A DNA stretch of 46,227 nt from Microcystis aeruginosa Ma_SC_T_19800800_S464. Lineage in GTDB: Bacteria > Cyanobacteriota > Cyanobacteriia > Cyanobacteriales > Microcystaceae. The DNA lies in contig SFBL01000078.1 in assembly GCA_007095785.1 (NCBI GenBank), forward strand, positions 1 to 46,227, read 5' to 3'. The position numbers were made by a program, and so were the translations under genes. Below, piece by piece: positions 2,549 through 28,523 of the stretch (its first letter is position 1; every line of letters begins with the position of its first letter). Under the pieces are notes generated by a model that was given only the letters and a program-made list of their open reading frames with translations, did not search any database and was not told the DNA's origin.

Positions 2549-5500
2549 CTACTCAGAAACAGACAGAGGGGAAACCTTTTGGGCTTGAGCGAGATAGTAC
2601 CATCCCGACGGGACAAATACCAGTGCGCTTAGGGTGGTTCCGATCACCCCGATGGAAATACAGATAGCGAGGGGTTCCCAAAAAGCGCCGCCGTAGAGAA
2701 ATAATGGCACAAATCCCGTCACGGTGGTTAAGGTAGTGGTGAGAATGTGACGGGTGGAAGCAATGACCACTTCCCGGATTGCCTTTCGTTGGCGTTGAAG
2801 ATGGGGGGGTAAAGCTTGTAAAGCCGCTACCACGACAATAGAATCATTAACGGAAACCCCAACTAAGCCGATAGTGCCTAAAATCGACATGAATCCTAGG
2901 GGATATTCAAATAACCAGAGGGAAAATAAGGCTAGTCCAATCGAACTAATACCGACGACAGTAACTAGGGCAGCAAGACGGAAGGAGTTAAAAGAAAGAA
3001 CAAGGGTTGATAGCATTAGAATCGCCAAGACTCCCACACTAGCAATTAGATTAGCCACAGCCGTATCTCTTTCTTCTTCCTCTCCGCCAAATTCGAGCCG
3101 ATACCCTGGCGGAAGGGAAAATTTGCCCGATTCTAAGTTTTGGCGAAATTCGTCTAAAACCGTTGCAGCGATCGCATCAGCTTGAACATAGGCCTTCACC
3201 GTATTAATTCGCTTGCCATTTCGTCGAGGAATCGTGGCTAATTCGGGGAGAAAATCAAATTCTGCCACGGAGGAAAGGGAAATATTCGCCCGTTCGGCAG
3301 TGGCGGAATTACCGAGAATATTTAAAGAGGCAATTTGTGGCAGTTGCTCGCGATCGCGATTACCGACTCGGACTCGTACGGGTAATTCTTCCGTTGCTTC
3401 TAAAATCGAGCCACCCACAGAACCTTCTAAAAGGTTATCCAATTGACTTGCGATCGCCGCATTATCCAAACCAATCAGTCGAGCTTTTTCTTCATTAATT
3501 TTTAAGGCTAATTTTGCTTGAATTTCACTTAAATCAGCAACAGAATAGGTTATTTCGGGTATTTTTGCCAGTTCTTCCCGTAAGGACTCGCCAATTTTCC
3601 TTAACATCTCCAATTCTGAGCCATAAACCCTAATTTCGATCGGAGCCCCCACCGGTGGACCCTGTTCTAGGGGGCTGACTAATACCCTAGCCATCGGTAG
3701 AGCTTGACTCAATTCTTTTTGTAAGGTTTCGATCAATTGGGGATCATCAGAAACTTGCCGAAGTTGAATCAATGCTTGGGCAAAATTAGGAGAGTCTTTG
3801 ACGCCATCGGAGAGATTATAGTAGAAGGGGGGAGCATTACGCCCTAAAAACCAGTGAACTTCTGCAATTTCTCGATGATCTAGCAGTATTTTTTCAGCTT
3901 GAGCCACTTTTACCTGAGTTACTTCTAGGGTTGTGGTGGGGGCCAGTTCGATTTCTAGGGTTAACTGATCTCGTTCTGCCGGCGGAAAGAATTCTTCCGG
4001 GAGAGTGCCGGCGACAACAAAGCCAGTAATTGGGATAATCAAGCCAATAACCAGACCTAATACGGGAAAATAGAGAATTAACTTCAAAATTTGGCGATAC
4101 AACCCCGTTAGGAGCGGTAAATTAATTCCCGTATCCCACCAATGGGTTTTTGTCTGGTGGGAGCGACGAGTCAGTTGATATAAACGTAAACTGAGGACAG
4201 GAATAATCGTTAGGCACAAAATTAGAGAACTAACCAAGGCTAAGATCACTGTTTGGGCGATAGTACGCACGAATTCGCCAGTGCCTCCTGGCAAAAGAGC
4301 GATCGGCATAAAAGACAAAATCGTGGTTAGGGTAGAAGCTAAGAGGGGAATCCCTAAATGTTTAACGGTTTCAGCAACAATATGTTGGTGAGCTATTCCG
4401 GTCCGTAGTCCTTTTTGCAGTTCATCGACAATCACAATAGCGTTATCGATCAAAAGTCCCAAAGCAATAACAATTCCTGTCACCGACATTTGATGTAGGG
4501 GAATTTGCCAGAGATTCATACCAGCAAAGACCATCAGGATCGATAAGGGCAAGGATACACTTACCACCAAGGCGGACTGCCATCCCATCATCACAAAAGC
4601 TGTCCCCATGACACAGAGTAACCCTAGGATCATGTTGCTGAATAATCCATCGAGTCGGTTAGCCACATAACGATTTTGGGCAAAAATTATCTTGAGGCTA
4701 ACACCTTGGGGGAGAGAGGGTCGAAACAGGTCTAACTTGGCCTGGGCTGCCGTTGTCCATTCGTCTATGCGTTGCCCCGATTCCATCATAGCCGCCACCA
4801 CAATAGCCGGTTTACCGTTAATAATAGTTAGTTCTGGCGGTGGTTCTTGAATTCCCTTGGTAACTAGGGCGATATCTCCTAAACGGGTAAATTTTCCCTC
4901 ATTACTGTAACGAATCGGAATTGCTCGAATCCGAGAGAGTGATTCTAAACTGGTATCGACTTCCAATAATAAATTATTGCGATTACTGCGAAGTTGTCCG
5001 GCGGCGACCTTGGCATCACTGGTTTGAATTTGTTGGGCAACTTCGACGGCAGTTAGGCCCAGGGAGGATAATTTCACCGGATCAATTTCGACTAAAATTT
5101 CCTCGGCCGGAACCCCGACTAACTCGACCCTTTCGGTTCCCCAAAGGGCTTCTAATTCATCGAACAGTTCTTGGCCAAGTCGGCGTAAAATAGCGTAATT
5201 AGGAGCGGTATCTAGATCCCAAAGGATGGCAGTCAATAAACTAAAGGCTTGACTATATCCTTCTTCGTATAAGGGTCTTTGGGCTTCTGGGGGTAGTTGC
5301 GGGATGACATCGGTAATCCGATCGCGAATGCGTGACCAGACGGGATCCACATCAGTCACTTCATCTTTAAGTTCAATATTGACCGTGGAACGCCCTAATT
5401 CTGAGGAGGACTCAATCAGGCTAATTTCTTTGATGCTAGAGAGAGATTGTTCAATTTTTTCGGTCACTAGGGATTCGACCCGATAAGGACTGGCACCGGG

Positions 5501-5647
5501 TAAATTGGTGGTAATGGTGGCACCTCGATTAATTGTTTCGGGATCTTCCATGCGCGGCAAAATTTGAAAGGAAGACAATCCCCAGACAATAATCAGAATT
5601 AAGGTAAGAATTAGTAATCTAGGTTTACGTTCAAATAAGTTATTCAT
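2549..5647 (-). CDS. RND-family efflux pump, inner-membrane permease
   Basis: A 1032-residue protein of full AcrB/HAE length. It has an N-terminal membrane anchor (about residues 12-30), a first large periplasmic loop carrying the porter signature ITTNLPGASPYRVESLVTEK, a bundle of membrane helices around residues 335-490 and 520-550, a second periplasmic loop, and C-terminal helices from about 870. The TM4 proton-relay motif reads GLLIDNAIVIVDE (near residue 400), so only the first of the two aspartates of AcrB is kept, a variation seen in related RND pumps. It should work with the periplasmic adaptor encoded 42 bp upstream; no TolC-like outer-membrane gene is in the window. As last gene of the biosynthetic run, export of the cluster product is a reasonable inference, but a general efflux system next door is possible. 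Confidence 0.9.
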   Translation of the reverse strand: MNNLFERKPRLLILTLILIIVWGLSSFQILPRMEDPETINRGATITTNLPGASPYRVESLVTEKIEQSLSSIKEISLIESSSELGRSTVNIELKDEVTDVDPVWSRIRDRITDVIPQLPPEAQRPLYEEGYSQAFSLLTAILWDLDTAPNYAILRRLGQELFDELEALWGTERVELVGVPAEEILVEIDPVKLSSLGLTAVEVAQQIQTSDAKVAAGQLRSNRNNLLLEVDTSLESLSRIRAIPIRYSNEGKFTRLGDIALVTKGIQEPPPELTIINGKPAIVVAAMMESGQRIDEWTTAAQAKLDLFRPSLPQGVSLKIIFAQNRYVANRLDGLFSNMILGLLCVMGTAFVMMGWQSALVVSVSLPLSILMVFAGMNLWQIPLHQMSVTGIVIALGLLIDNAIVIVDELQKGLRTGIAHQHIVAETVKHLGIPLLASTLTTILSFMPIALLPGGTGEFVRTIAQTVILALVSSLILCLTIIPVLSLRLYQLTRRSHQTKTHWWDTGINLPLLTGLYRQILKLILYFPVLGLVIGLIIPITGFVVAGTLPEEFFPPAERDQLTLEIELAPTTTLEVTQVKVAQAEKILLDHREIAEVHWFLGRNAPPFYYNLSDGVKDSPNFAQALIQLRQVSDDPQLIETLQKELSQALPMARVLVSPLEQGPPVGAPIEIRVYGSELEMLRKIGESLREELAKIPEITYSVADLSEIQAKLALKINEEKARLIGLDNAAIASQLDNLLEGSVGGSILEATEELPVRVRVGNRDREQLPQIASLNILGNSATAERANISLSSVAEFDFLPELATIPRRNGKRINTVKAYVQADAIAATVLDEFRQNLESGKFSLPPGYRLEFGGEEEERDTAVANLIASVGVLAILMLSTLVLSFNSFRLAALVTVVGISSIGLALFSLWLFEYPLGFMSILGTIGLVGVSVNDSIVVVAALQALPPHLQRQRKAIREVVIASTRHILTTTLTTVTGFVPLFLYGGAFWEPLAICISIGVIGTTLSALVFVPSGWYYLAQAQKVSPLSVSE

Positions 5648-5689
5648 TGGAGATTATTAGGGATAATAAAGCTGATTAATGACCACTGA

Positions 5690-7045
5690 CTACCAAATTT
5701 CCACCATTTGCCCGGGTACGATGCGATGAACCCCTTCGACGATCACTCGATCACCGGAGGTGAGCGTCCCGCGCACCAACAAGCGATCGCCTTGAATCGC
5801 TAGAACTTCTAAATCTTGGCGTTTGACGGTAAATTGTCGAGGATTATCGGGATTAGCTGCTCCTAGAACATAGGAAGACCATAATCCTCTCGTGCCTTGT
5901 ACTAAAGCTTCTGTGGGCAACCAATAGCCCGATTGTGGAACTGATTGAGATAGTTCTAGGCTGACCACTTGCCCCGGAATCAGGCCTTGAGTCTGATTTA
6001 AACTTAAAATAACCGTGGCGGTACGGGTAGTCGGATCAACTTGGGGTAGGGTTGAAGTGACTTGTCCTGTTACTATTTTGTCACCAATTTTTAAACGATG
6101 TTTACTCCCAATTGGTAATTTTTCGGACTGGTCAACGGGAACCCCTATACGCGCTTCCAGTTGATTACTTTCGACCAAACGAACGATCGGATTACTTGCA
6201 GAAACAACAGTGCCAATATTGACGTGAAGGAGGGCAATAGTGCCATCGTAGGGTGCTTTAAGTTGGCTTTTCTCAATCTCTAATTTAATATTCTTCAGTT
6301 GGGCATCGAATTGGTCAATAACGGCTTTTTGCAGAGAAATTAATTCGGGACGAGTACCGGCTTTGAGTTCATCTAATTCACTTTGGGCTTGATCAATTCT
6401 CGCTTGTTGGGCATTAACATCGGTTTGCACTTCTTCGAGTTGTTCTCTAGTAATTGCCCCTTCTTGATACAATCCTAGCCGTCTTTGGTATTTAGATTCG
6501 GCTAAAGCTAATTGTTCCCTGAGATCTCGGACTTTTGCTTGGGCTGCGGCGATACTTTCTTTCCTGGAACCGGCTTGTAATTCTTGCAGTTTAGCCGTGG
6601 CTTGCGCTCGCTGGGCGATGAGTTCTTGTTTTTGTGCTTCTAAATTGCCTGTATCTAGAGTAGCAATTAAAGTACCTCGACGTACCTCTTGACCCTCTTG
6701 AACCAATAAACTAATTAATTGTCCCGAACGCTCAAATCCTAGTTCACTTGTCCGTTTAGCCACAATATTACCCGTATAACGGCGCGGTTCTTGGTGATGG
6801 GTGACAGGAGTTAAAGTTAAGGTTCGCACCGGTAAGGCTGCCGTCTTGCCCTTATCGATTGCTAACGAAGCGGTTTCTTCTGAGGTGGTGGATTCAGAGG
6901 TGTCTTCTAAGAGGACATTACGCAGGGTAGGATAGGCAAAAACCGAGGTGGCTGCTAGGATACCAGCAATAATTAATCGCCAGGGCAATCGCAGTTTTTT
7001 GATGGCAGTTTCTTGATGTTTGGTGACGGGATTGGGGGAAGTCAT
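5690..7045 (-). CDS. RND efflux periplasmic adaptor (HlyD/MFP family)
   Basis: A 451-residue membrane-fusion protein. It has one N-terminal membrane anchor (about residues 22-42), a split biotinyl-lipoyl domain (GNIVAKRTSELGFERSGQL, then KAPYDGTIALLHVNIGTVV), a long alpha-helical coiled-coil hairpin between them (about 135-250, rich in Q, E, A, L), a beta-barrel domain and a C-terminal membrane-proximal domain ending RIVPGQMVEIW. This architecture bridges an RND permease to an outer-membrane channel. It lies 42 bp upstream of the RND permease and 60 bp downstream of the MFS gene on the same strand, so co-transcription with the pump is nearly certain and with the PKS genes likely. Confidence 0.9.
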   Translation of the reverse strand: MTSPNPVTKHQETAIKKLRLPWRLIIAGILAATSVFAYPTLRNVLLEDTSESTTSEETASLAIDKGKTAALPVRTLTLTPVTHHQEPRRYTGNIVAKRTSELGFERSGQLISLLVQEGQEVRRGTLIATLDTGNLEAQKQELIAQRAQATAKLQELQAGSRKESIAAAQAKVRDLREQLALAESKYQRRLGLYQEGAITREQLEEVQTDVNAQQARIDQAQSELDELKAGTRPELISLQKAVIDQFDAQLKNIKLEIEKSQLKAPYDGTIALLHVNIGTVVSASNPIVRLVESNQLEARIGVPVDQSEKLPIGSKHRLKIGDKIVTGQVTSTLPQVDPTTRTATVILSLNQTQGLIPGQVVSLELSQSVPQSGYWLPTEALVQGTRGLWSSYVLGAANPDNPRQFTVKRQDLEVLAIQGDRLLVRGTLTSGDRVIVEGVHRIVPGQMVEIW

Positions 7046-7105
7046 AATCTAGTTCCAAATGAATAGGGTTTAGTCAAGAGTAATAACAGATTAGCGAGGA
7101 AAGAA

Positions 7106-8407
7106 CTATTTTTTTATGGCATAAGACCGGAGGACAAAAGCCGCTGCTAGGGATAATATACCGGCGGACAAAAAGGCAATTTGTACCCCCCAGGGGTTAT
7201 CAGGAGTTTTCCCGAAAGAAAGGATTAATCCTGTTAGAAAAGACCCCGCACCTTGGCTAAATTGAATTAGAAGACCCCTGGTTCCAAAAAATATTGCTTC
7301 TCGGCCCATTCCTTGTTGCTCCGCATCTTGATCGATAATGTCCGATAACATGGCATTCGGCAGACTAAAAAAGCTGGCTAGGGCTAAATTAGCGATGATC
7401 GAAAGGATTAACCAAGGAATTAAAGAATCTTGCCACCAAAAGCGACCACAGGCCATGGCAATCATACCAAGGCCAACCCAGATTAAAGAACCTTGAAAAA
7501 CCAGTTTTTTGCCATATTTTTGCGCTAAGGGTAAAACTAGGGTAAATCCAGCCAAGGCACTCCCCACGATAATAGTATTAATCACGGCGGCAAAACTTAC
7601 CTCTCGTCTGAGGAGAGCAATTACTAAAAAAGTCGGAATCACCGAGATAATACTAATCACCATCCACGCCAAAATCATGGTGATCATATAGATACAAAAA
7701 GTCCGATTAGTAAAAGCCGCGGTTAAGGTGGTTTTAAAGTTAGGATATTTGCCCTTAGAAGGAGTATATTCTTCTTTTTCTAGCAAGGGCATAGCTAGAG
7801 TAATTACCCCAATAAGACTAATAGCAATCCCCATGCCCTGAAAGCCATAGCTATCAGTTAACCAAGGGGCAATAATCCCACCAATTGTGGCACCAACTAA
7901 ACCAAAAATTCCGATTTGAGTTGATAATTTAACCCTTCCTTCTGGGCTTTTAGCGAGAGTGGGCAACCAGGCTAAATAGGGAACATGGTAGGATGCCATA
8001 CCCACATAAAACAGCCAAAGCATGATGACTAAATAAATAAAGTAAGTGGTTTGATTTAAGTTATTAGGGGGATTAAACAACAGGATAAAACCACCAATTA
8101 AAGGGAGTAAACTGGCCAGTATAAATGGTCTTCTTTTGCCCCAAGGACTCCAAAAGCGATCGGAAAAATAACCGATCACTGGCTGCACAAAAGCCCCAGC
8201 AATACGGCTAATCATTATCGCTATCCCCACTAAAGCAGAGGGCAATAAAATGGATAAGTTATAGTCATTGGGAATGCCAGGGTCGTAGCGATAGATTAGC
8301 ATGGTTAGAAGGGCATTATTAACGATAAAGTTACCAAACCAACCAGTGATATACGGAAGATAATCTATTCGGAGATGTTGCCATTTGCTAGAAGTGCTAG
8401 AAGTCAT
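7106..8407 (-). CDS. MFS transporter, GPH/SLC45-like
   Basis: A 433-residue polytopic protein with about 12 hydrophobic helices. The loop-2 signature YFSDRFWSPWGKRRPFIL (about residues 80-97) is the form found in glycoside-pentoside-hexuronide and SLC45/sucrose-type members of the major facilitator superfamily. The loop after the sixth helix carries EKEEYTPSKGKYPNF. MFS members of this type are usually cation symporters, but substrate cannot be read from sequence. It sits 48 bp downstream of the flavoprotein oxidase gene and 60 bp upstream of the RND adaptor on the same strand, so I infer a role in moving a precursor or the product of the cluster across the inner membrane. Import of an unrelated solute is the alternative. 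Confidence 0.85.
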   Translation of the reverse strand: MTSSTSSKWQHLRIDYLPYITGWFGNFIVNNALLTMLIYRYDPGIPNDYNLSILLPSALVGIAIMISRIAGAFVQPVIGYFSDRFWSPWGKRRPFILASLLPLIGGFILLFNPPNNLNQTTYFIYLVIMLWLFYVGMASYHVPYLAWLPTLAKSPEGRVKLSTQIGIFGLVGATIGGIIAPWLTDSYGFQGMGIAISLIGVITLAMPLLEKEEYTPSKGKYPNFKTTLTAAFTNRTFCIYMITMILAWMVISIISVIPTFLVIALLRREVSFAAVINTIIVGSALAGFTLVLPLAQKYGKKLVFQGSLIWVGLGMIAMACGRFWWQDSLIPWLILSIIANLALASFFSLPNAMLSDIIDQDAEQQGMGREAIFFGTRGLLIQFSQGAGSFLTGLILSFGKTPDNPWGVQIAFLSAGILSLAAAFVLRSYAIKK

Positions 8408-8455: not shown

Positions 8456-10087
8456 TTAAAGAAATTCGTAGCGACCGGGTGAGAGAATGTGATTGGGATC
8501 TAAGCTGTCTTTAATTTTCTGGATTAAGCAACTATAATCGTCTTTGGCTAGGGGTAAACTATTCATAGAGTGGGTACTAAGACGGTAGGGATAATAGCCT
8601 TGATTGATCAATTCTGCCAACATTTCATCGTGACAATTTAAGGCTTTTTGGTCTTCTCCCTCTAGCAATCGATCATAAAAAATGGCAGCATTGATGTTGA
8701 TATTGCGCTCGGTAATACAGTTAATGCCGATATTAGGTTCATAACCATATTTTTGAGCGATGCTGCTGATAATATTGAGAGCATTTCTGAGATGATTTCC
8801 CAGAAAAGGAACGGCGGGAACACACCAAATCATGCCACAGGCATCCAGATCTAAATCCAACTTATCAGTGGGAGGCGTTTTTTTGCGCCAATAGGCCATT
8901 TTCAGCACTTTTTCGGTAATCATTCCTCGTTGGGGATTTTTGTGATAAATTAAATCCACCTTGTCCTTAATTTCTACACCAGTAAATACTTTAAAAATTG
9001 GACTCATTTTGCTGGCCATTTTGAACTTATTTTCATCAAAAAACATAAGTTTATTGACAATTCCTTTCAAGGCTTTTTCAATTAGTTTTCTTTCGACTTT
9101 TCCCTGTTCTGGTGAAGCCGAATATAAAGCTCCTTCTCCTATCCAAACACCGCCGCCCCATTGATGACTTAATTGTTCTAACAAATCGGGGGGTAAAGGG
9201 GTTTTTTCTTGGCAGTCTTGCCAGGGATATTGTTGTTGAATGGACAACATTCGGTAGTTATTATTAATGTGGAAGGTCGTTTTAATTACCCCTGCCATTT
9301 TCAGTTGACGTAGTTTATCGATCAATAACTCTAATTTATTTTCTTGATCGATGCTATAGAAAAAAGCCTGAAAATATTCAGGATAGGGGGTTAACCAAAA
9401 AGTCATTTTGGTGACGATTCCCAGGTTAGATTGGGTAAAAATTCCATCAAAATAGGGACCGACTCCCCAACGATTGACCGCCCCTATTTGGGAGTTTTCA
9501 AAGCGATTAAATCCCGTATGAACACATTCACCGGTGGGCAAAACTACTTCCATTCCACAGACATGATTAAAGCGATCGCCTAAAGGTCCTTTGGCTTCAC
9601 CTCGTTCGAGAATATTGCCAATAATACTAGAATCAGGAGTCGAACCAGTGACACTCATTAATAATTTATTGCCATTTTTTTGCAAAAAATCGTAGAGTTG
9701 TCGCTGAGTAACACCCGCTTCAATAGTTACATAAGCTAGGGTTTCATTATAATCCAAAATCTGATTTAATCGACTCAAATCCATTAAAACCGAACTGGTG
9801 CGGCTAGGAACTCGCGAACCATAACCCCAATTTTTACCTGTACTAATAGGATAGACGGGGGTTTGATAGCGATTAGCAATTTTTAGACATTCTTGGACTT
9901 CTTGACGATTACCCGGGCGAATAATTGCTGGGATTTTAGCATGGGTTTCGTAGGTAGCGGTCTCGGCTTCTAGGCGTTTTTTGTTATCGGTGCTGACATA
10001 TTCGGAGCCTAATAAATTTTCCCATTCTTGTAGAGCGTCAGTTAAATTGTCGCTAATAATATTTTCGGAAACAATTAGAGAGTCCAT
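8456..10087 (-). CDS. FAD-dependent oxidase of the VAO/4-cresol dehydrogenase family
   Basis: A 543-residue flavoprotein. The N-terminal half is a PCMH-type FAD domain (about 55-235): the diphosphate-binding loop is PISTGKNWGYGSRVP (about 99-113), followed by AYVTIEAGVTQRQLYDFL. The C-terminal half (about 245-510) matches the vanillyl-alcohol oxidase/p-cresol methylhydroxylase substrate domain and ends SLDPNHILSPGRYEF, the usual closing motif of this family. Known members oxidise para-alkylphenols through a quinone methide, giving alcohols, aldehydes or alkenes, so such an enzyme fits a cluster expected to make an alkyl-phenol. A good ribosome-binding site (AAGGAG) precedes the ATG. A hairpin in the 80-bp gap upstream may separate it from the methyltransferase gene. 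Exact substrate and covalent flavin link are unknown; a berberine-bridge-type activity is less likely. Confidence 0.85.
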   Translation of the reverse strand: MDSLIVSENIISDNLTDALQEWENLLGSEYVSTDNKKRLEAETATYETHAKIPAIIRPGNRQEVQECLKIANRYQTPVYPISTGKNWGYGSRVPSRTSSVLMDLSRLNQILDYNETLAYVTIEAGVTQRQLYDFLQKNGNKLLMSVTGSTPDSSIIGNILERGEAKGPLGDRFNHVCGMEVVLPTGECVHTGFNRFENSQIGAVNRWGVGPYFDGIFTQSNLGIVTKMTFWLTPYPEYFQAFFYSIDQENKLELLIDKLRQLKMAGVIKTTFHINNNYRMLSIQQQYPWQDCQEKTPLPPDLLEQLSHQWGGGVWIGEGALYSASPEQGKVERKLIEKALKGIVNKLMFFDENKFKMASKMSPIFKVFTGVEIKDKVDLIYHKNPQRGMITEKVLKMAYWRKKTPPTDKLDLDLDACGMIWCVPAVPFLGNHLRNALNIISSIAQKYGYEPNIGINCITERNININAAIFYDRLLEGEDQKALNCHDEMLAELINQGYYPYRLSTHSMNSLPLAKDDYSCLIQKIKDSLDPNHILSPGRYEFL

Positions 10088-10167: not shown

Positions 10168-10773
10168 TTAACTTTTAAGCGGTTGCTGTTTGCGAGAGAA
10201 AATTGCGCTAAAACTAGGAATAAAACGGGGAGTATTGGCGAAAACTGCTTGATAATTGGTGTCTTGACTCAAAGCTTCTTCTTCAGCGGGAATGCGTTGG
10301 ATTAATAACCAAGCATTCAGGAGACTAAAGACTATAGATGTCAGATAAGCGGTATGAAACAGGGGAACCACCGCTAATTCCGTGATCATGGCGCACCAGT
10401 TAGGATGACGGATATATTGATAAATGCCATTGTCGATCACGGGTGTCTGGGGAACCGTGACCACCTTATGAATCCAGCGATCGCCTAATGCTTCAATGGA
10501 GGCATAGCGGAGCTTTTGAGCTAAAAAGGTAGTAATTAGGGAAAATAAAGCCAATGCTGGAATAAAAGGTCTGTTGAGCAGATAAACTTCCCCGATCATG
10601 CAAAGCATCCAGCTAGATTGGAAAATCTTGACGAATCCCACATAATTAGAACTATGCAGTTTGCCACCTTCCGCTAAGACTTTGGCCATATTCTGTTTAC
10701 TCAGACGAGTAACGCGCACTCGTTGGACAATAATGTAACTAATCAGGGCAATGAAAACTATTTGGCTTAACAT
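10168..10773 (-). CDS. Isoprenylcysteine carboxyl methyltransferase-like membrane O-methyltransferase
   Basis: A 201-residue membrane protein with four to five hydrophobic helices and the ICMT/PEMT-family signature YIRHPNWCAMITE (about 121-133), plus the C-terminal EEEAL...Y..Y/F...PRFIP block that completes the S-adenosylmethionine site. In bacteria, small ICMT-like enzymes next to type III polyketide synthases O-methylate alkylpyrones or phenolic lipids (BpsB in Bacillus, SrsB in Streptomyces are the established cases). Here the gene starts 12 bp after the stop of a type III PKS gene, preceded by AAGGAT, so translational coupling and an O-methylation step on the type III product are strongly suggested. 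The hydrophobic setting fits a long-chain substrate. Confidence 0.85.
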   Translation of the reverse strand: MLSQIVFIALISYIIVQRVRVTRLSKQNMAKVLAEGGKLHSSNYVGFVKIFQSSWMLCMIGEVYLLNRPFIPALALFSLITTFLAQKLRYASIEALGDRWIHKVVTVPQTPVIDNGIYQYIRHPNWCAMITELAVVPLFHTAYLTSIVFSLLNAWLLIQRIPAEEEALSQDTNYQAVFANTPRFIPSFSAIFSRKQQPLKS

Positions 10774-20300: not shown

Positions 20301-22801
20301 CTAATTAAGGTGGTTTTTGCGCCAATTTCTAGGAATATTTCCGTATTTAACTCTCCTAATCTTTCTATACCCCGGGCAAACTCTACGGGAGAAAGTAGAT
20401 GATTGACCCAATATTGGGAAGTTGCTATCTCTGCATCGATAACATCCCCAGTCAGATTAGAAATAAGGGGAAGATGCGGAGAATGATAGGTGATAGTTTC
20501 GGCAATCTTGGCAAATTCCCCCACCATACCCGTCATTAAGGGAGAATGGAAAGCATGGGAAACCGCTAAAGTCTGACTTTCAATGCCTCTCTGATTAAAG
20601 TTAGTGATTAAATGGTTAATAGCCTCAGTTTCGCCAGAAATGACCGTATTTTCTCGACTATTGACCGCAGCAATGGTACAGATACCCCTAATCTTCCTCA
20701 GATGATTGGTGACGGTGTCGGAATCGGTAAAAATTGCCGCCATTATGCCGTTTTTCGGTAATGTCTGCATTAAGCGTCCCCGATGGGCAATTAACTTCAA
20801 ACCGTCTTCTAAGCTAAAGACTCCCGCTAAACAAGCGGCCACATATTCCCCTAAACTATGACCGATGAGAGCATCGGGTTTCACCCCCCAAGATAACCAG
20901 AGTTGGGCGAGGGCATATTCCAGAGAAAATAGGGTAATTTGACTGTAAAAAGTCTGATTAATCAACTGACTGGTTTTTTCGTCCCCATATAACACTTGCA
21001 GTAAGGATTTCACCCCATAGCTCCGTAAAATTTCGTCACATTTCTCTAAAGTTTGGCGAAAAGTCGGTTGCGTTTCGTAGAGTTCCCTAGCCATTCCGGG
21101 ATACTGTGAACCCTGTCCCGTACACATAAAAGCCAGTTTAGGGGCTTTTTTCGAGGTTAAAAGACTTTTTTGACCTGAAAAGCGATTTTCACCCCTAATA
21201 AAGTCTTTTAAAGCTTGCTCAAGCTGTTTTTGAGCCACAAAGGGAATAGCTAAACGATGCTCAAAATGCGATCGCCCAGTATTAGCGGTATAGGCCACAT
21301 TTGCCATAACCGTCTGGGAATTTTGACCTAAAAAATCGTAGTAGCGTTGAGCTAATTCCCGTAAGGCCGGCTCACTTTTCGCCGAAAGGGTAATTAAATG
21401 ACAAGGACGTTCTAAATGAGGTTTTTCGTCACCAAGCCGCTCAAAATTGCTTTCCTCAACGATTAAATGGACGTTAGTACCACTCATCCCAAAAGCGCTC
21501 ACCCCAGCCCGTCGGACTCCTTCTCTGACCAACCAAGGGGTAAGAGTGGTGGGGATTTTGACCGGCAGCTTTTCCCAGGGAATATAGGGATTAGGGTTCT
21601 TAAAATGAAGATTAGGGGCGATTTGCTGATTTTGTAACTGTAAAACTGTCTTAATTAACGCCGCAATCCCCGCGGCTCCTTCCAGATGCCCCATATTAGT
21701 TTTCACGGTTCCCAAAATCAGGGGGTTATCTTGACTATGACCCTGGCCATAAATTTTCCCTAAGGATAAAACCTCGATGGGATCTCCTAAAGATGTACCT
21801 GTACCGTGAACTTCGACGTATTGCAGATCTTTAGGTTGAATTTTCGCTCTTTCGAGGGCTTGTCTGAGTAAAGCTTCCTGTGCCTGACCATTGGGGGCGG
21901 TTAAGCCATTACTTTTTCCATCGTGATTGACAGCCGAACCGCGAATTTGGGCGAAAATGAGATTGCCATCTCGGAGAGCATCACTGAGACGTTTTAAGAC
22001 CACGACACCGCAACCTTCGCCCCGACCATAACCATCGGCCGAAGCATCAAAGGTTTTACTGCGACCCTGGGGAGAAACGGCTTTTAACTTACAATTACTA
22101 ATCGCAGTGGCCGGGGTTAACATCAGATTTACCCCCCCCGCTAAAGCGAGATTACATTCTTGGCCGCGCAGACTTTGACAGGCCAAATGTACTGCCAAGA
22201 GGGAGGAGGAACAGGCCGTATCAATTTGCAGAGTCGGACCGTGAAACCCAAATAGATAAGAGATTCTGCCGACGGCAATAGCGCGACTGGTTCCTAAACT
22301 GTTGTAAGCATCAATGTGATTGACTACGCCTTGATGAAAACACAATTGGGCATAATCATCGCGAAAAATGCCCATAAATACGCCAGTTTGACTATTAATC
22401 AAACTTTCTGGCGCAATAGCCGCATTTTCTAGGGATTCCCAACAGACTTCTAACAGTAACCGTTGTTGCGGATCCATGGCGGCGGCTTCCCGAGGTGAGA
22501 TACCGAAGAAAGCTGGGTCAAATTCGTCAACTTTGTCTAAAAATGCCCCGTCCCGACTATACATTTTCCCCGGAACATCGGCATCTTGGTGATAATAATC
22601 GGCAATATTCCAACGTTCTAGAGGAATTTCTGTTACTGCATCGATGCCATTAACCAATAACTGCCAATAACTTTCGGAATCATTGACTCCTGCGGGAAAA
22701 CGACAGCCCATACCCACAATAGCGATGGGTTCGGTTTGCGCTTTGACCATTGCATCGAGGTGTTTGTATTGTTCTAAAAAAGCTTGTTTTTGTTGATTCA
22801 T
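17360..22801 (-). CDS. Type I PKS module KS-AT-DH-KR-ACP
   Basis: A 1813-residue polyketide synthase. KS (about 24-450): Cys197 (DTACSSS), His332 (EVHGTGT), His372 (NMGHLE). AT (555-850): Ser649 in GHSLGEY with HAFH, the malonyl-type motif. DH (about 918-1190): His950 in the HxxxGxxxxP motif (HQVFGQVVFP) and Asp1111 in LLDGCFH. KR (structural part from about 1210, catalytic 1418-1600): GGLGALG nucleotide site, Tyr1565 in GQSNYASANAF, and LED in the LDD position, with the Asp of B-type ketoreductases. ACP: Ser1728 in LGMDSLM. There is no enoylreductase between DH and KR, so the extension unit should stay as a double bond. It lies 195 bp after the FAAL fusion gene and 40 bp before the next PKS. 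Confidence 0.95.
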   Translation of the reverse strand: MNQQKQAFLEQYKHLDAMVKAQTEPIAIVGMGCRFPAGVNDSESYWQLLVNGIDAVTEIPLERWNIADYYHQDADVPGKMYSRDGAFLDKVDEFDPAFFGISPREAAAMDPQQRLLLEVCWESLENAAIAPESLINSQTGVFMGIFRDDYAQLCFHQGVVNHIDAYNSLGTSRAIAVGRISYLFGFHGPTLQIDTACSSSLLAVHLACQSLRGQECNLALAGGVNLMLTPATAISNCKLKAVSPQGRSKTFDASADGYGRGEGCGVVVLKRLSDALRDGNLIFAQIRGSAVNHDGKSNGLTAPNGQAQEALLRQALERAKIQPKDLQYVEVHGTGTSLGDPIEVLSLGKIYGQGHSQDNPLILGTVKTNMGHLEGAAGIAALIKTVLQLQNQQIAPNLHFKNPNPYIPWEKLPVKIPTTLTPWLVREGVRRAGVSAFGMSGTNVHLIVEESNFERLGDEKPHLERPCHLITLSAKSEPALRELAQRYYDFLGQNSQTVMANVAYTANTGRSHFEHRLAIPFVAQKQLEQALKDFIRGENRFSGQKSLLTSKKAPKLAFMCTGQGSQYPGMARELYETQPTFRQTLEKCDEILRSYGVKSLLQVLYGDEKTSQLINQTFYSQITLFSLEYALAQLWLSWGVKPDALIGHSLGEYVAACLAGVFSLEDGLKLIAHRGRLMQTLPKNGIMAAIFTDSDTVTNHLRKIRGICTIAAVNSRENTVISGETEAINHLITNFNQRGIESQTLAVSHAFHSPLMTGMVGEFAKIAETITYHSPHLPLISNLTGDVIDAEIATSQYWVNHLLSPVEFARGIERLGELNTEIFLEIGAKTTLISLGQQNLPERGLWLASLSPKQSNWETLLQSLATLYVKGVKIDWNGFDLDYLREKITLPTYPFQRKRYWLDYIDSQLKTPTVAAFHPLLQQPLHLLGSKDVHYQSSLSPCYPSYLQEHQVFGQVVFPAAAYLEMIIVAAGQQYPNQQFTIGQLSLNRPLIFSENQSKKVQLSLLAGGQFQILSLGEGEVSLLHLSGNLTNENQDLPSCNWTDIRNRCHQKIEIAQHYQDCSSKGVNYGESFRVIHELYRNQSEIVAKIQLSSHLLSQAVDYQLHPVLLDGCFHAMSALFPAGNSTYLPTNIDRLTFSGVKDTSIYCHGRFSHSNLQNGILIADLTIFSESGQLISQIDGLTFQQARPETLFSQTNDLNDSLYEITWQATDLRGIDWTETGDWLIFADKKGVGQQLAEKLVQQGHRCQLITENNRQTWQYFLKKPYQGLIYLWGIDDDQALENNQNLAATQERICGTLLEIVQELGKIEVNYSPRLYIVTQSAQYIPSQPTVIALAQSSLWGLGRTIALEHPELRCLCLDGDKFQDSHTLALEVFQSLQSSEEENQIAWRQGRSYVARLGRFIPKSSLKNREIAENATYLISGGLGALGQQVANWLRKKGATSLVLLSRRGITPETQPIIDQWRQEGTNVEVFAADVSDFGQMRRAFEIIEQQLPPLKGIIHTAGVLEDASLSKQTWEKFERVFSPKILGAWNLHLLSQEVDLDWFINFSSMASVLGSSGQSNYASANAFLDSLAHYRQAQGLPALTINWGPWAEGGMAENLGEKAKKRLIKQGFTPLEPQKCLHLLETLLKTSRTQVTVASLNWNSFFNSFENQKIPPLLQDFQSFSAPKLTPDNNFIDVLRTVQIEERFAALTAHVQGIVAEIIGIPAREFTQVDQGFFELGMDSLMTVELRNRLAKDLGKSLAATITFKYPTVTSLVDYLVAEVIDLDFSLKPLAIGANQDNNLDPLNEEDLSLEELSDLLLQELNSLS

Positions 22802-22952
22802 CTTCCTAACAACTCTTGTCTTGTTATGTCACGTCACTTTCATCTCAGGTTATGCTTAGGAAAAAGTCGCAGATAAGCAGGAAAAACCTTTATACTGTCG
22901 GGATGGGAAAATTTAGTGGCATAGTCACAATTGTCCCCGTGACTCCGAGGTG

Positions 22953-22988: not shown

Positions 22989-22996
22989 ACCAGCGA

Positions 22997-25900
22997 TTAA
23001 CTAAAGAAGGCAGAGATTTCTTCTTCGGATATTTGGGGTAAAACTGCTAAAATTTCGCTTTTTTCGGGATTATTTGCCGATTCAGCCCCAGTATTGCTTT
23101 GATTAATCTGGTTAGCTAAATATTCTGCCAAACTATCAATAGTGGGATAATTCCAAACAATGGTGGCTTCGACGGGAATTCCCGACCAATCGGCAAGATC
23201 TTGGGCTAATTCCACGGCAAAAATTGAATCTAAGCCAAAATCAGCAAAAGACTGGCTGGTTTGGATAGTGGCTGGATTGACCTTTAATTTCTGGTGTAAC
23301 CAATTACCTAACCACATTTCCACCTTTTCGGGAGTTTGTTGGCTAAGAAGGGACTTTTTCGGACTAGAGGGGATATTTACTCGGTCTTGCGGCGGTTGAC
23401 TAGCAATTTCGACCAGAGAAGTTTCAGCTTGAGGATGAGTCTGTTTAGCTTCTGGTTCCAACATCAATAACTCGTCGAGTTGATAATCGGAACCGTCTAG
23501 ACGTTGTTCGATATCATCAATAGATTGAGTATAATCGAGGATACGATCGCGGATAGTCGCCACCGAAGAAGCAAAGTTTTCTTCGGGTGTTCCCCGGAGA
23601 GCTTTCTGCACACATAAATCAAACTGCAATTGACTCCAAGCTAGGGCATGACTGTACTTTTCCCCGGGGTGAATTTGGGCCATTTTCGCCGTTGTTGCTA
23701 CTAAAGCGGCGTAACAACCCAATTCTCCGATTAAAGAATAAGCCCAAGCTAAGGCGGCAGAACGATCACCCCAGAGATTAGACTGGAGACAACGCTGATT
23801 AATAGATTGGGCAGTGCTGTGGAGTTGCAGGGCAATTTCGGGCGCTTCCAGAACTTTTGTCAGAAATTCGCCTAATTTGTCCGTATGGGTGATACTTTTG
23901 CCCAAAAAGATTTTCAAACTCTCGTTAGGACCTTCGCCAATTCGTAAAACTCTGGCATCCCGGAGAATTTGCGGGGCAAGATTAGTTTCCATGTAACCTC
24001 TACCCCCGAGCATCTGAACAAGACTATCGGCCGCTTCCCAGAGGTAATCAGCCCCCGTAATCTTGGCAATAACGGCCATTTCCCTGGGAACGGCAACTTT
24101 TTGGTCTAAGGCGGTGGTGATACACTTTAAGAGACTGGACAAGGCCACAGTAGCCCCAGTTAAATGGTCAAAACGGGCTAAAGTAATCGGACTTTCTAGC
24201 AATTTACCGGTAGCGATCGAACGACGGCTGGCATAACGTAACATTAATTGTAGACAGCGTTTCATGCCGCCAACTCCAATCATGCCAATACCTAAACGGG
24301 CATAAAGTAAAGCATCGTCGGCGGGTTCAGTGCCATTGCCCAATTCTCCCAGCAATTGCTCTTTAGTGACTAAAACATCCTCAAAATAGATGGCATTTTG
24401 CATAATTCCCCGTAATCCCATAGTTAGGGATTCAGGTCCCAAACGCAGACCGGGGGTACCTTGACGGACAAGAAAACCTGTCAAACCGTTATTCCCCGGT
24501 TCTTCCGAATCAAGCAAACGGACAAAAACATTAATCATTCCGGCCCAAGCGGAACCATTCCAACGCTTAAGGCCGCGAATTCGCCATTTATCTCGGCCAT
24601 CCGGCACTGCAACGGTACTAATTGCCCCGATATTCGATCCTGCTTCCGGTTCCGTCATGCCAAAGGAGGATAATTGTCTTCCTGTCGCTAAAAGAGGTAA
24701 TAACTCTTGCTTGAGGGAAATAGTCCCGTAGTTGAGCAGCGGACGGATACCTAAGCTGTTATTGAGACTGACCATCGTCGCCAGAGTTAAATCAATGGCG
24801 GCTAATTGTTCCATCACCTGCAAAAAATTGCGATTATTAAGGGCTATTCCCCCGTATTCCTCAGGAATCTGCATTCCCATCAGTCCTTGATTGCCAAAAT
24901 CCATGACAATATAGGGCGGCACACAACGACGGTCATCAATCAGATGGGAATTAATGCGAGTTTTGGCGTAATCTCGCAACCAAGTCAAGATTTGCTCGGT
25001 TTTTTCTTGACTAGCGGTTGTGGGGTCAGCTGGGTGACTGCTGAGGGGGGGGGTTAGCGTCGGCATAGGGGATGAAATTAGTGGAAGTTGCTGGTTTAAA
25101 TACTGTTGACGGCAAGCGTGGCGTTGAATTTTGCCGCTAGAAGTTTTGGACAGAGATGCGGGTTTGATAAAAGCGATATCATAAACTTGCAATTCGTGTT
25201 CTTGAAAAACCGCTCGACGAACTGCTTCTAGGGCTTTTTGCTGGTTAAAACGGCGAATTGCCGTTCTTTCCACCTCTTGAACTAGGACTAACTTTTCTTC
25301 TGCCTCGATTTCTACGGTAAAGGCGGCAGTTCCACTGGGGCAAAAGTCGGGATAGCATTGTTCTACGGTCTGTTCGATATCCTGGGGATAGTAGTTACCA
25401 CCGCGAATAATCATCAGGTCTTTCAAGCGTCCGGTGATGTATAGTTGACCCTGATGAATAAAACCTAAATCCCCTGTACGCAAATAAAAACCCTGTCCGG
25501 TATCGGCGATAACTGCTTGAAAAGTTTTTTCTGTCGCTTCGGGATGTTGCCAATAGCCTTGGGCAACGGTTTTGCCTTTCACCCAAATTTCTCCCACCTG
25601 CTGGGAGGTACACCGGTGACAGGTTTCAGGATTAACAATGGCAATTTCTGTGTCGATTTCTGTTTGTCCACAACTGACTAAGGATTGAGAATTTGGGCTT
25701 TTTTCCGTAAAAACGATTTGATGACGGTTTAACGCGGCTTTTTCAACCCAGCAGATTTGAGGAACTTGATTTTTCCTGACAGCAGCAACTTTTAAGGTGG
25801 CCTCGGCTAAACCATAACCCGGACAAAAAGCGGCAAACTCAAAACCACAGGGGGCAAATTTACGAGCAAATTCGCTTAAAATTTCTATTCTGACGGTTTC

Positions 25901-26806
25901 TGCGCCATTTATAGCCACTTTCCAACTGCTTAAGTCTAAATCCGCCAGCTGTTCCTCTTTAATCTTGTCAAGACAACGTTTATAGGCAAAATTAGGGGCG
26001 GCAGTGTGGGTGGCCCTGTATTTGCTGATGGCATTTAACCAACCCAAGGGACGTTGTAAAAAGGAAACCGGGGACATTAGATAACAGGGAAATCCTCGAT
26101 AAAAGGGCAGTAAAACGCCATAAATTAGCCCCATATCATGAAAAGTTGGCAACCATGTCACCATAACACTCTTTTCATCCTGTTCCCCGTCTAAATCTAA
26201 TATTCCAGAAGCAATATCTCGGAGGTTATTCAAAAGATTCTCGTGATTGACCATCACTCCTTTGGGAGTCCCCGTGGAACCAGAGGTGTATTGTAAAAAG
26301 GCTAAGGTCTCTGCTTTTATCTGAGTGGGGTGGTCTTCGGCTAAACTTTTGCCGATTAAGCTATCCGTAGCTAGAAAGGGAATATCTCTATCTAGTTGTG
26401 TTTTTAATTGGGCTAATTCCGATTGTGTGCTTAAAAGTAAGCTTGCTTGCGAATTGTTAAGAATAGAAGTTAAGCGAGCCATCTTTTGGTTTTTCTTGGG
26501 CAAATTAACTGGAATTGCCACTACTCCTGCTAATAAACAGCCGAAAAACCCAGTAATAAACTCTAATCCCGAAGGGTATGCTAATAAAACTCGTTCTCCC
26601 GGTAATAGAATCGATTGTAGAATATTCGCGATCGCTTGAGCTTCTCGAAATAATTCCCCGTAGGTAAGGCGTTTTCCTTCGGTTTCCCCATCGACCAAAA
26701 AGGTATAAGCAGTTTTTTGGGGTTGGTATTGGGCGCGATAACGAATAACATCGACTAAATTGCTTATTTCTGACAAATTAAGCTTATTATCTAAACAAAG
26801 AGTCAT
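22997..26806 (-). CDS. Fatty-acyl-AMP ligase / acyl-CoA dehydrogenase / ACP fusion
   Basis: A three-part loading enzyme of 1269 residues. FAAL (about 1-575): AMP-binding loop YTSGSTGTPKG near 173-183, WLPTFHDMGLI, and Lys560 in SSGKIQRH; this type activates free fatty acids and passes them to a carrier protein. Acyl-CoA dehydrogenase fold (about 600-975): FGMTEPEAGSN, MLGGRGYM, and the catalytic Glu959 in RIGEGPNE is kept, so alpha,beta-desaturation of the bound acyl chain is plausible. A helical linker leads to an ACP (about 1160-1240) with Ser1195 in FGLDSIFA. I chose the ATG at 26806 because GAGGAG lies 7-8 nt before it; the in-frame ATG at 26821 would sit upstream of that site. It follows the nitroreductase and precedes the PKS genes. 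Similar FAAL-ACAD-carrier fusions occur in cyanobacterial lipopeptide and polyketide clusters. Confidence 0.93.
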   Translation of the reverse strand: MTLCLDNKLNLSEISNLVDVIRYRAQYQPQKTAYTFLVDGETEGKRLTYGELFREAQAIANILQSILLPGERVLLAYPSGLEFITGFFGCLLAGVVAIPVNLPKKNQKMARLTSILNNSQASLLLSTQSELAQLKTQLDRDIPFLATDSLIGKSLAEDHPTQIKAETLAFLQYTSGSTGTPKGVMVNHENLLNNLRDIASGILDLDGEQDEKSVMVTWLPTFHDMGLIYGVLLPFYRGFPCYLMSPVSFLQRPLGWLNAISKYRATHTAAPNFAYKRCLDKIKEEQLADLDLSSWKVAINGAETVRIEILSEFARKFAPCGFEFAAFCPGYGLAEATLKVAAVRKNQVPQICWVEKAALNRHQIVFTEKSPNSQSLVSCGQTEIDTEIAIVNPETCHRCTSQQVGEIWVKGKTVAQGYWQHPEATEKTFQAVIADTGQGFYLRTGDLGFIHQGQLYITGRLKDLMIIRGGNYYPQDIEQTVEQCYPDFCPSGTAAFTVEIEAEEKLVLVQEVERTAIRRFNQQKALEAVRRAVFQEHELQVYDIAFIKPASLSKTSSGKIQRHACRQQYLNQQLPLISSPMPTLTPPLSSHPADPTTASQEKTEQILTWLRDYAKTRINSHLIDDRRCVPPYIVMDFGNQGLMGMQIPEEYGGIALNNRNFLQVMEQLAAIDLTLATMVSLNNSLGIRPLLNYGTISLKQELLPLLATGRQLSSFGMTEPEAGSNIGAISTVAVPDGRDKWRIRGLKRWNGSAWAGMINVFVRLLDSEEPGNNGLTGFLVRQGTPGLRLGPESLTMGLRGIMQNAIYFEDVLVTKEQLLGELGNGTEPADDALLYARLGIGMIGVGGMKRCLQLMLRYASRRSIATGKLLESPITLARFDHLTGATVALSSLLKCITTALDQKVAVPREMAVIAKITGADYLWEAADSLVQMLGGRGYMETNLAPQILRDARVLRIGEGPNESLKIFLGKSITHTDKLGEFLTKVLEAPEIALQLHSTAQSINQRCLQSNLWGDRSAALAWAYSLIGELGCYAALVATTAKMAQIHPGEKYSHALAWSQLQFDLCVQKALRGTPEENFASSVATIRDRILDYTQSIDDIEQRLDGSDYQLDELLMLEPEAKQTHPQAETSLVEIASQPPQDRVNIPSSPKKSLLSQQTPEKVEMWLGNWLHQKLKVNPATIQTSQSFADFGLDSIFAVELAQDLADWSGIPVEATIVWNYPTIDSLAEYLANQINQSNTGAESANNPEKSEILAVLPQISEEEISAFFS

Positions 26807-26899
26807 ATTTTCACTCCTCATTATTAAAGGAAATCGAAGACAAAGATTTAATCCTCTCGCACCTGGAAAAGTTTCTGGTGACGGGGGGCGAATGGAATT

Positions 26900-27562
26900 C
26901 TAGGGGTGATTTAGGCTTAAATTAAAGGTTTCTCCGTAAATTTCGCCATAGCAGAGCTTCTGAGTCCCAAAACGGCCCCCATACTCGCTCAAGGGTTCAT
27001 CAGCGTAGCCCAGGGCCAACAGACAACAGACATCGACCGTATCGGGAATTTGGAAATACTCGCGCAAGGGTTTAGCCACAAATCCTTCTAGGGGACAACT
27101 ATCCACCCCCAAGCTTTGCGCCGCTATCATGAGATAAGTAACCGCAATCATAACTTGTCGGTTGCTCCAAGCTTCTGGAGACTGATAACAGGGTTTAAAT
27201 TGGAAAAAAGGCGGAATAGCCATGTGCATGAACTTGGCCCGTTTTTCGGAAATCGTCCCCTCTTGCTTTCCTAACTCAATCACTTGATTAATGTAACCAC
27301 GATGGTTAACTTGGCGATCGCCACAACAGATTAAAACCACGGGTGCATCGACCAATTTATCTTGTTCAAAGCCGAATTCTCGCAATTTTGCCTTATTTTC
27401 TGGTTCTCTAACCACAATAAATCGCCATGGTTGCAAATTATAACTAGAGGGTGCTTGGAATCCTAAACGAAAAATTTCGGCTAAAATTTCTTCGGGAATG
27501 GCATCGGTGCGAAATTTACGAGTAGAGCGTCTTTTTTGAAATATTTCAGCAATATTCATCAT
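26900..27562 (-). CDS. Nitroreductase-family flavoprotein
   Basis: A 220-residue FMN-dependent oxidoreductase. The FMN phosphate motif KRRSTRKF is at about 11-18, QAPSSYNLQPWRFIVV (about 36-51) matches the family flavin-binding loop, and LGVDSCPLEGF plus LALGYADEP near the C-terminus complete the fold. Members reduce nitro groups or quinones, or dehydrogenate substrates such as thiazolines; reduction of a quinone or redox tailoring is the most natural role in an aromatic-lipid pathway, but this is inference. It lies 31 bp after the extradiol-dioxygenase-like gene and about 93 bp before the FAAL fusion start, same strand. Two ATGs (27562 and 27559) are possible; AAGGGG lies at normal distance. 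Confidence 0.85.
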   Translation of the reverse strand: MMNIAEIFQKRRSTRKFRTDAIPEEILAEIFRLGFQAPSSYNLQPWRFIVVREPENKAKLREFGFEQDKLVDAPVVLICCGDRQVNHRGYINQVIELGKQEGTISEKRAKFMHMAIPPFFQFKPCYQSPEAWSNRQVMIAVTYLMIAAQSLGVDSCPLEGFVAKPLREYFQIPDTVDVCCLLALGYADEPLSEYGGRFGTQKLCYGEIYGETFNLSLNHP

Positions 27563-27593
27563 CTAACCCCTTTTATAAGACGTTTTCAACGGT

Positions 27594-28523
27594 TTAACCT
27601 AAAAAACTTTCGGGAATCGCTGGTCCCCATTGATAGAGAATATCTAACCCACCTGCGTGCAGTTCTGGCTCGGTGGTTTGCTCGAAAAGGTCTCCATCGG
27701 TAAAATGTTCAATTAGGCTACCGAAAGGATCTTGCCAATAGTCAAACACTTGACTTCCCAACAAATGGCGACCAATTCCCCACACAGGAGTCCATCCTTT
27801 TTCTCGTAACCAATCGTGGCCGATTTTAATAGAGTCAAAATCTTGCACCTCGAAGGCAGTATGATGGACTTTGGGGTGAGAACCTTGTAACATGGCGATG
27901 GTGTGATGATCAACCCATTCCTCTCCCCGTTGACAACGAAGAAAACCCCCGACTCGTAAACTGGGATGGCCGTAATAAATTAAATCTGTTGCTTTTAAGC
28001 CAAAAGTCTGCTGATACCAGTGATAGCTTTCCTCAAAGTCTTTGACATCAATAGCTAGATGACCTAGACGTAAAATAGGTGCGGGTTCTTTTTTCGGCCT
28101 TTGGGTGCGACCTAAACGGGTTTTCCGACTAGCGTGATTCCATTGCAAGGGTTCGGGAATCGGCAAAGGTTCCACTTCCTCGATACCATAGACCAATTCT
28201 AGGTTAAAACCGTTGGGGTCAATAATTTTGATGCGCTGACCACCGCCAGGGGTGAACAGGGTTTCCACGGTCGAAGCGGAGGCTAAAGTGGCTAGTTCAT
28301 GTAAAACGGATTCTGATGTCGCTTCTAGGGCAAAACTGACAAATTTAGCTTCTTTTCCCCATTCTACGACATAGACAAACTGTTTTTTGCCTCTACCTCG
28401 CATATACAAGGCTGTATCGGTTTTAACCGCGGTAATCAGGCCAAAATCCCTCAAAAAACGTTCACACAGGTCTAAATCCGGATGTTGATAGGTAACGTAG
28501 GCAATATCAGCAATTTTAGTCAT
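27594..28523 (-). CDS. Two-domain VOC protein, extradiol ring-cleaving dioxygenase-like
   Basis: A 309-residue protein with two vicinal-oxygen-chelate domains (about 5-120 and 150-280), the layout of class I extradiol dioxygenases such as 2,3-dihydroxybiphenyl dioxygenase. In the second domain the metal ligands seem intact: His155 in LGHLAIDV, a His of the HH pair at 220-221 in KVHHTAFEV, and Glu272 in SLIEHFTDGD. A further HH in VDHHTIAM (206-207) and Tyr262 in FDYWQDPFG occupy places of known acid-base residues. These enzymes cleave catechols next to the hydroxyl pair using Fe(II) or Mn(II). It is the first gene of the minus-strand run, 31 bp before the nitroreductase, suggesting ring cleavage or modification of an aromatic intermediate; a detoxifying or unrelated role remains possible. 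Confidence 0.85.
   Translation of the reverse strand: MTKIADIAYVTYQHPDLDLCERFLRDFGLITAVKTDTALYMRGRGKKQFVYVVEWGKEAKFVSFALEATSESVLHELATLASASTVETLFTPGGGQRIKIIDPNGFNLELVYGIEEVEPLPIPEPLQWNHASRKTRLGRTQRPKKEPAPILRLGHLAIDVKDFEESYHWYQQTFGLKATDLIYYGHPSLRVGGFLRCQRGEEWVDHHTIAMLQGSHPKVHHTAFEVQDFDSIKIGHDWLREKGWTPVWGIGRHLLGSQVFDYWQDPFGSLIEHFTDGDLFEQTTEPELHAGGLDILYQWGPAIPESFLG

Follow-up and report, generated by a model that had tools for sequence, protein, structure and literature searches.

What product is made by a polyketide cluster of Microcystis that has had none assigned since it was described in 2008? We approached this question through a 46,227-nucleotide stretch of Microcystis aeruginosa Ma_SC_T_19800800_S464 (contig SFBL01000078.1 of assembly GCA_007095785.1; hereafter the window), in which 12 co-directional genes occupy positions 2549–28523 of the minus strand (25.98 kb). 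They encode a hybrid of type I and type III polyketide synthases (PKSs), several tailoring enzymes including a predicted extradiol dioxygenase, and transporters. A preliminary description of this DNA had predicted an oxidised, methylated phenolic lipid. The oxidised and methylated logic holds up, but because the dioxygenase is tied to this type of cluster in the genomes searched and could open the ring, what the pathway finally releases need not be a phenolic lipid.

The cluster has been in print since 2008

By gene order and domains, the window cluster is almost certainly the orphan cluster published as PKSImod/PKSIII, MKS and PmNT3. A cluster with a modular type I and a type III PKS was reported from PCC 7806 (Frangeul 2008, PMC2442094) and later given as 12 adjacent genes over 25.3 kb (Humbert 2013, PMC3741299). 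Larsen 2021 named it MKS, described RND and MFS transporters, noted that cylC and cylK are missing and proposed a linear product (PMC8086630); Yancey 2024 recorded PmNT3 in 14 strains plus one partial copy and linked candidate mass features to it, with no structure (PMC11264947). As in the printed passages on PCC 7806 and other strains of the genus, the window holds 12 adjacent genes over about 25 kb (25–26 kb in print), two modular PKSs with a type III PKS, a flavin monooxygenase and an ICMT-type methyltransferase between the PKS genes and the transporters, and both RND and MFS transporters; its gene order agrees with PmNT3 6–11 and with mksC/E/G/H. A difference lies in the second PKS, to which the table row merD / PmNT3 9 of Yancey 2024 gives a DH and a KR, whereas Pfam finds neither in the 1320-residue protein here. 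A view of the cluster as undescribed is thus not supported (PMC2442094, PMC3741299, PMC8086630, PMC11264947), and the linear, oxidised, non-cyclophane reading of the preliminary description is essentially the inference that Larsen 2021 had printed on the strength of the missing cylC and cylK.

The passages of the literature searched assign no product to MKS/PmNT3, and a 2026 review counts the PKS compounds of Microcystis as mostly uncharacterised (PMC12838216). The cluster is reported, secondhand from primary work, to be strongly transcribed in a bloom and to relate inversely to the microcystin genes (PMC8086630, PMC11264947), and a later study gives log2 changes of at most 1.1 upon microcystin addition. 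The words dioxygenase, glyoxalase, nitroreductase and vanillyl are absent from the main texts of Larsen 2021 and Yancey 2024 (PMC8086630, PMC11264947). To this record we add conserved synteny in a genome outside the family, a compact version of the cluster, the link between dioxygenase and cluster, the vanillyl-alcohol-oxidase (VAO) type of one flavoprotein, and a genomic island.

The core assembly line resembles that of CylI

Pfam domains and motifs define mksC (22997–26821) as a 1274-residue FAAL-ACAD (acyl-CoA-dehydrogenase)-ACP protein, mksD (17360–22801) as a 1813-residue type I PKS of composition KS-AT-DH-KR-ACP, and mksE (13357–17319) as a second type I PKS, KS-AT-ACP-TE; the 391-residue type III PKS is mksG (10786–11961). 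Every motif sought in the cluster proteins was found, and we take these motifs to carry their customary catalytic meaning: the FAAL P-loop and ACAD Glu963 in mksC; the KS Cys/His/His, AT Ser and ACP Ser in both type I PKSs; the DH His/Asp and KR Tyr in mksD; the TE Ser1158/His1293 in mksE; and the triad Cys156/His315/Asn348 in mksG. No enoylreductase (ER) was found by Pfam in either type I PKS, so a double bond is expected in the chain beside the ring unless it is reduced in trans.

The closest solved structure to the type III PKS is CylI (8ysp; E 5e-115, 388 bits), a resorcinol former (PMC8086630), and the second best is Pks11, labelled as alpha-pyrone synthesis (188 bits). This match upholds the CylI-like type I/type III logic that the preliminary description had proposed. 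By analogy, we infer that loading, the two extensions by type I modules and closure by the type III enzyme proceed as in the CylI paradigm, and the core product is probably an alkylresorcinol. Assignment as a DpgA-type starter synthase was rejected, as the NCBIfam match is below its cut-off with its best stretch C-terminal, and CylI is far closer.

Other elements of the earlier description were recovered as well: features spanning about 26 kb of one strand, the FAAL-ACAD-ACP protein and two modular PKSs with catalytic residues in place, an intact type III triad, several redox enzymes with an ICMT-type methyltransferase, and no halogenase, alkylating enzyme or dimerisation gene among the 12 genes by Pfam. 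Its count of thirteen co-directional genes stands only in part, since 12 lie inside 2549–28523 and the thirteenth, a pentapeptide-repeat gene at 1239–2018, is co-directional but outside; the latter stretch is matched in all 12 Microcystis genomes searched, cluster present or not. Gaps between the 12 genes measure 12–195 nt, the widest separating the FAAL gene from the first type I PKS gene, and none of the listed terminator-like sites falls within them. Terminator-like sites, both strands pooled, are no commoner than in shuffles. This outcome is compatible with a single transcript and does not demonstrate one; separate transcripts have no support, and the promoter and terminator scans, which do not exceed shuffles, cannot decide. 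An Rfam scan gave no match.

The predicted extradiol dioxygenase is tied to this type of cluster in the genomes searched

The first of the 12 genes (27594–28523; it would be mksA) encodes a 309-residue protein of the VOC fold (Pfam PF00903). Type I extradiol dioxygenases of this fold are defined by two VOC modules and a 2-His-1-Glu set of metal ligands. Both are present here, with the limit that Pfam matches only the second module and the first aligns weakly to 3b59. Residues H155, H221 and E272 align with the His, His and Glu of 3b59 and are invariant in all six sequences aligned, the window's included, as are H206/H207, H253 and Y262; we presume the former three to be metal ligands and the latter to be acid–base positions. 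Matches to the NCBIfam HpaD and catechol 2,3-dioxygenase models all fall below the cut-offs.

Genomes were searched at two levels, 386 from the phylum and 388 from the order (Cyanobacteriales). At E ≤ 1e-60 the type III PKS occurs in 19 of the 388 genomes, own genome included, and at E ≤ 1e-40 the dioxygenase occurs in six: three Microcystis, G284, G482 and G009 (the two 388-genome samples, drawn in the same way and to the same size, are taken as identical, most non-matching genomes being unlisted). Five of the six also carry the type III PKS, and the sixth, G009, is a Microcystis with a ruined copy of the cluster. Searched over their whole genomes, the 14 other type III PKS carriers gave no dioxygenase match at E ≤ 0.001 (14/14).

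Among plasmid-borne relatives of the dioxygenase (186 records), we viewed three neighbourhoods, chosen from 15 listed for being annotated. In each, genes for an MhpA-type hydroxylase and an FAH-family hydrolase lie no more than 8 kb from the homologue (39–42% identity); they are not in every case direct neighbours or encoded on one strand. The Streptomyces neighbourhood also has a gene for malonic-semialdehyde reductase; the cluster's nitroreductase resembles this family, with a score under the cut-off of the NCBIfam model. Such aromatic-degradation neighbourhoods share with the window cluster a phenol hydroxylase along with a homologous two-domain extradiol dioxygenase and look catabolic; the window cluster differs in that it lacks the FAH hydrolase, would make the substrate within the same putative operon and has an FMO-type monooxygenase.

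Extradiol dioxygenases need vicinal hydroxyls, and in orcinol breakdown the same kind of ring is hydroxylated and then cleaved in extradiol fashion. Since an alkylresorcinol likewise gains vicinal hydroxyls by one hydroxylation, ring opening can be proposed here. The dioxygenase probably acts in the pathway; actual cleavage of the product's ring is a real possibility short of probable. Our literature searches found no paper uniting type III PKS, extradiol dioxygenase, alkylresorcinol and ring cleavage, at most two of these appearing together.

Relatives outside Microcystis keep the tailoring genes

We compared the neighbourhoods of all 16 type III PKS loci outside Microcystis. In G284, which lies outside the family, nine genes from the dioxygenase to the VAO-type oxidase are kept in order and strand at 55–79% identity; the 35 kb fetched hold no MFS or RND homologue and only a distant HlyD-like match (23%). 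G482 has a compact cluster (contig 80, 55009–67544) comprising a nitroreductase, a FAAL, a 536-residue ACP::type III PKS fusion (ACP by Pfam, E 3e-13), a 640-residue fusion of ICMT-type methyltransferase and flavin monooxygenase (FMO), the dioxygenase, a 264-residue protein with no Pfam match, HlyD and RND. Neither a type I PKS nor a VAO-type oxidase turned up in the 50 kb fetched, and no MFS homologue lies in the stretches fetched around either cluster. Through the two fusions, methylation and FMO oxidation are linked to what the type III PKS makes, and the arrangement suggests that nitroreductase and dioxygenase do not serve a type I PKS. A role of the nitroreductase as trans-acting ER for the type I PKSs is accordingly unlikely, for G482 keeps it with no type I PKS nearby. 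The other 14 loci show no dioxygenase or nitroreductase homologue nearby, several of their contigs being short (e.g. G132, G571 and G574).

Other tailoring enzymes and transporters

The nitroreductase-family flavoenzyme mksB (26900–27562; 220 residues, PF00881) follows the dioxygenase gene. The class B flavin monooxygenase mksF (12009–13328; 439 residues, PF00743 E 6e-54) has an FxGxxxHxxxY stretch, which we take to be the FMO signature, and the ICMT-type O-methyltransferase is mksH (10168–10773; 201 residues, PF04140 E 1e-24). We assign mksI (8456–10087; 543 residues) to the VAO/4-cresol-dehydrogenase family: it matches 4-cresol dehydrogenase (1wve) at E 2e-63 in two stretches, as well as eugenol and vanillyl-alcohol oxidases, although its best match, 8s7r (E 6e-72), is labelled only oxidoreductase. 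Homology thus covers the N- and C-terminal parts, and the GYG and PYR motifs, present in the window and in G284, presumably supply the phenolate-binding Tyr and the Tyr-Arg positions of the VAO/PCMH family. A glycolate-oxidase-like reading (GlcD, TIGR00387 below cut-off) was rejected, VAO and 4-cresol dehydrogenases scoring far higher. The neighbourhoods of six cluster-free VAO-type homologues gave no clue to its substrate, nor did those in Megaera and Sulfuricurvum. A 35% homologue lies in a transposase-rich stretch of a Candidatus Megaera (Rickettsiales) plasmid (14989–16599).

Three transport genes complete the set: an MFS transporter (mksJ, 7106–8407; 433 residues, PF13347), an HlyD-type periplasmic adaptor (mksK, 5690–7045; 451 residues, above the TIGR01730 cut-off) and an RND permease (mksL, 2549–5647; 1032 residues, PF00873 E 2e-147).

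Comparison with paracyclophane and phenolic-lipid systems

With the [7.7]paracyclophane clusters (cyl, cab, mer) the window cluster shares a FAAL/ACP start, two type I PKSs, a CylI-type type III PKS and an ICMT-type methyltransferase. It differs in that FAAL, ACAD and ACP form one protein, in adding an FMO, a VAO-type oxidase, a nitroreductase and an extradiol dioxygenase, and in lacking CylC and CylK. In the passages of Larsen 2021 on mer, merD has a TE on the second PKS, as here, while merC has an ER, absent from the window cluster (PMC8086630). No CylC halogenase occurs among the 12 genes, and the whole assembly (240 contigs, 98% complete) gave a single weak, partial CylK match (E 6e-6, residues 62–152 of 648) to a query that itself matches solved CylK at 1e-105. 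Elsewhere in this assembly (G000 contig 95, 3394–4722), one protein shares 47% identity with a probable CylC-type halogenase; the label of that probe is itself an assignment of ours, a PDB search with it having given no match. Contig 165 of G284, which bears its cluster, has a CylC-type match at 50% (26464–27777) and a CylK-type match that is partial (48934–50619; E 1.5e-55), some 60–90 kb from that cluster. A cyclophane was set aside as the leading interpretation, given that the Microcystis carriers lack CylK beyond weak matches and that the tailoring set is out of keeping with such a product.

The phenolic-lipid clusters srsABC and hierridin (hid) share with the window cluster a type III PKS with a methyltransferase and an oxidising enzyme. 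They differ in that hierridins are made by a type III PKS alone, and the passages of Larsen 2021 name no dioxygenase in either (PMC8086630).

A proposed pathway and its alternatives

Taken together, gene content and conservation lead us to favour, on balance, a scheme with an alkylresorcinol core on which the dioxygenase acts, whether or not it opens the ring. In this scheme, each reaction and the order of reactions being inferred, the FAAL would load a fatty acid onto its own ACP and the ACAD domain would desaturate the acyl chain; the KS-AT-DH-KR-ACP module would add two carbons and leave a double bond, and the KS-AT-ACP-TE module two more, leaving a beta-keto group. The CylI-like type III PKS would then add malonyl units and close a 5-alk(en)ylresorcinol, which the FMO may hydroxylate on the ring and the ICMT-type enzyme O-methylate. 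The extradiol dioxygenase would act on the resulting catechol-type ring, perhaps opening it, the nitroreductase-family enzyme could reduce an oxidised intermediate, the VAO-type oxidase may oxidise the chain next to the ring, and the RND/HlyD pump would export the product. Beyond this scheme, and less likely than not, the exported compound may be a ring-opened or re-lactonised lipid of pyrone or furanone type, formed through a dioxygenase recruited from aromatic catabolism. The tailoring set of nitroreductase, FMO, ICMT-type enzyme and extradiol dioxygenase, which accompanies a type III PKS fed by type I PKSs as well as one fused to an ACP, would then be a portable unit that marks out a second CylI-clade branch next to that of the cyclophanes.

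Several points weigh against this interpretation. The dioxygenase matches solved dioxygenases weakly (3b59 E 9e-14; BphC 1han E 4.5e-5), the six genomes that carry it represent only three independent lineages, four of them being Microcystis, and the type III PKS tree, with G482 on a long branch, needs two changes where a single dioxygenase-bearing clade would need one, as 32% of bootstrap trees do. Each fusion is known from one genome, G482. The cluster has no FAH-type hydrolase, and the dioxygenase could serve self-protection or turnover. The TE of the second PKS could release the chain ahead of the type III PKS. Class B FMOs are unusual as aromatic hydroxylases, and the substrate expected of a VAO-type enzyme has its hydroxyl para to the chain, a feature that a plain 5-alkylresorcinol does not offer. 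The VAO-type oxidase is also not tied to the cluster, occurring in 36 of 388 genomes at E ≤ 1e-30.

Three other products were weighed against this scheme. It is improbable that the type III PKS lactonises to give an alkylpyrone core: although Pks11 is its second-best solved relative and ICMT-type enzymes methylate pyrones too, the enzyme is far nearer to the resorcinol former CylI (388 versus 188 bits), and a pyrone would offer dioxygenase and VAO-type enzyme no phenol. Rather unlikely, though well ahead of the pyrone, is an end product that keeps its ring, a linear O-methylated, oxidised alkylresorcinol like cylindrofridin or hierridin, with the dioxygenase reserved for self-protection or turnover. 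The absence of CylC and CylK from the cluster, the linear product proposed by Larsen 2021 (PMC8086630) and the lack of the dioxygenase in 14 of the 19 genomes that have a related type III PKS fit such a compound; it sits less well with a dioxygenase found (E ≤ 1e-40) in 388 genomes only with the cluster, save for the ruined copy, and encoded by the first of twelve genes in an order kept in G284, and present in the compact cluster too.

A [7.7]paracyclophane that arises in a new way, such as FMO-mediated ring closure, considered in the discussion of Yancey 2024 (PMC11264947), seems very improbable. The core enzymes are homologous to those of mer and cyl, another contig of the assembly has a probable CylC-type gene, and both CylC-type and partial CylK-type matches occur on the G284 contig; against this, CylK-type matches in the three Microcystis carriers are weak (best E 6e-6, 1e-6 and none), and the FMO homologue of G482 is fused to a methyltransferase in a cluster with no type I PKS. 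We also know of no place for dioxygenase or VAO-type enzymes in cyclophane assembly.

The cluster lies on a genomic island in Microcystis

The type III PKS is 98–99% identical to those of Microcystis sp. LSC13-02 and M. aeruginosa LEGE 91341, the sole further match in that search being from Leifsonia (33%). At E ≤ 0.001 it is found in four of 12 Microcystis genomes, own included: full length at 98–100% in three, and as a 27% partial match in G002. The two other full-length carriers have all 12 proteins at 96–99.7% in the same order. In all, the cluster is present in three of the 12 genomes, wrecked in one and not found in eight. Alignment to the cluster-free genomes stops at 2313–2327 and resumes at 33767–33774 in seven of these eight, the contig of the eighth (G003) ending at the site; all seven readable genomes thus show an empty site, which places the cluster and two AAA_35 ATPase genes on an island of about 31.4 kb (2328–33766). 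Of the wrecked copy in G009 (C1:4454289–4456328), a genome in two contigs, there remain the flanks, the C-terminal 60 residues of the RND permease and two pieces of the dioxygenase gene; what would match window positions 2732–27573 has been lost, and about 1.1 kb with open segments stands in its place. We read these segments, on our own inspection rather than from a search result, as transposase-like.

On the island, an EAD4-AAA_35 gene (29366–30808) adjoins a minus-strand gene (30805–33522) for a 905-residue protein that joins an AAA_35 ATPase to a periplasmic-binding/receptor-type ligand domain. Short dispersed repeats flank the cluster (2387–2507 and 28905–29280); the former lies just within the island's left end and accounts for most of the listed secondary matches among the 34–43 matches that each of the 12 Microcystis genomes gave.

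Implications

The compact relative in G482 and the link between dioxygenase and cluster make the phenolic-lipid prediction testable gene by gene, and the relatives outside Microcystis provide alternative producers. Chemists should seek a ring-opened product of this cluster as well as an alkylresorcinol.

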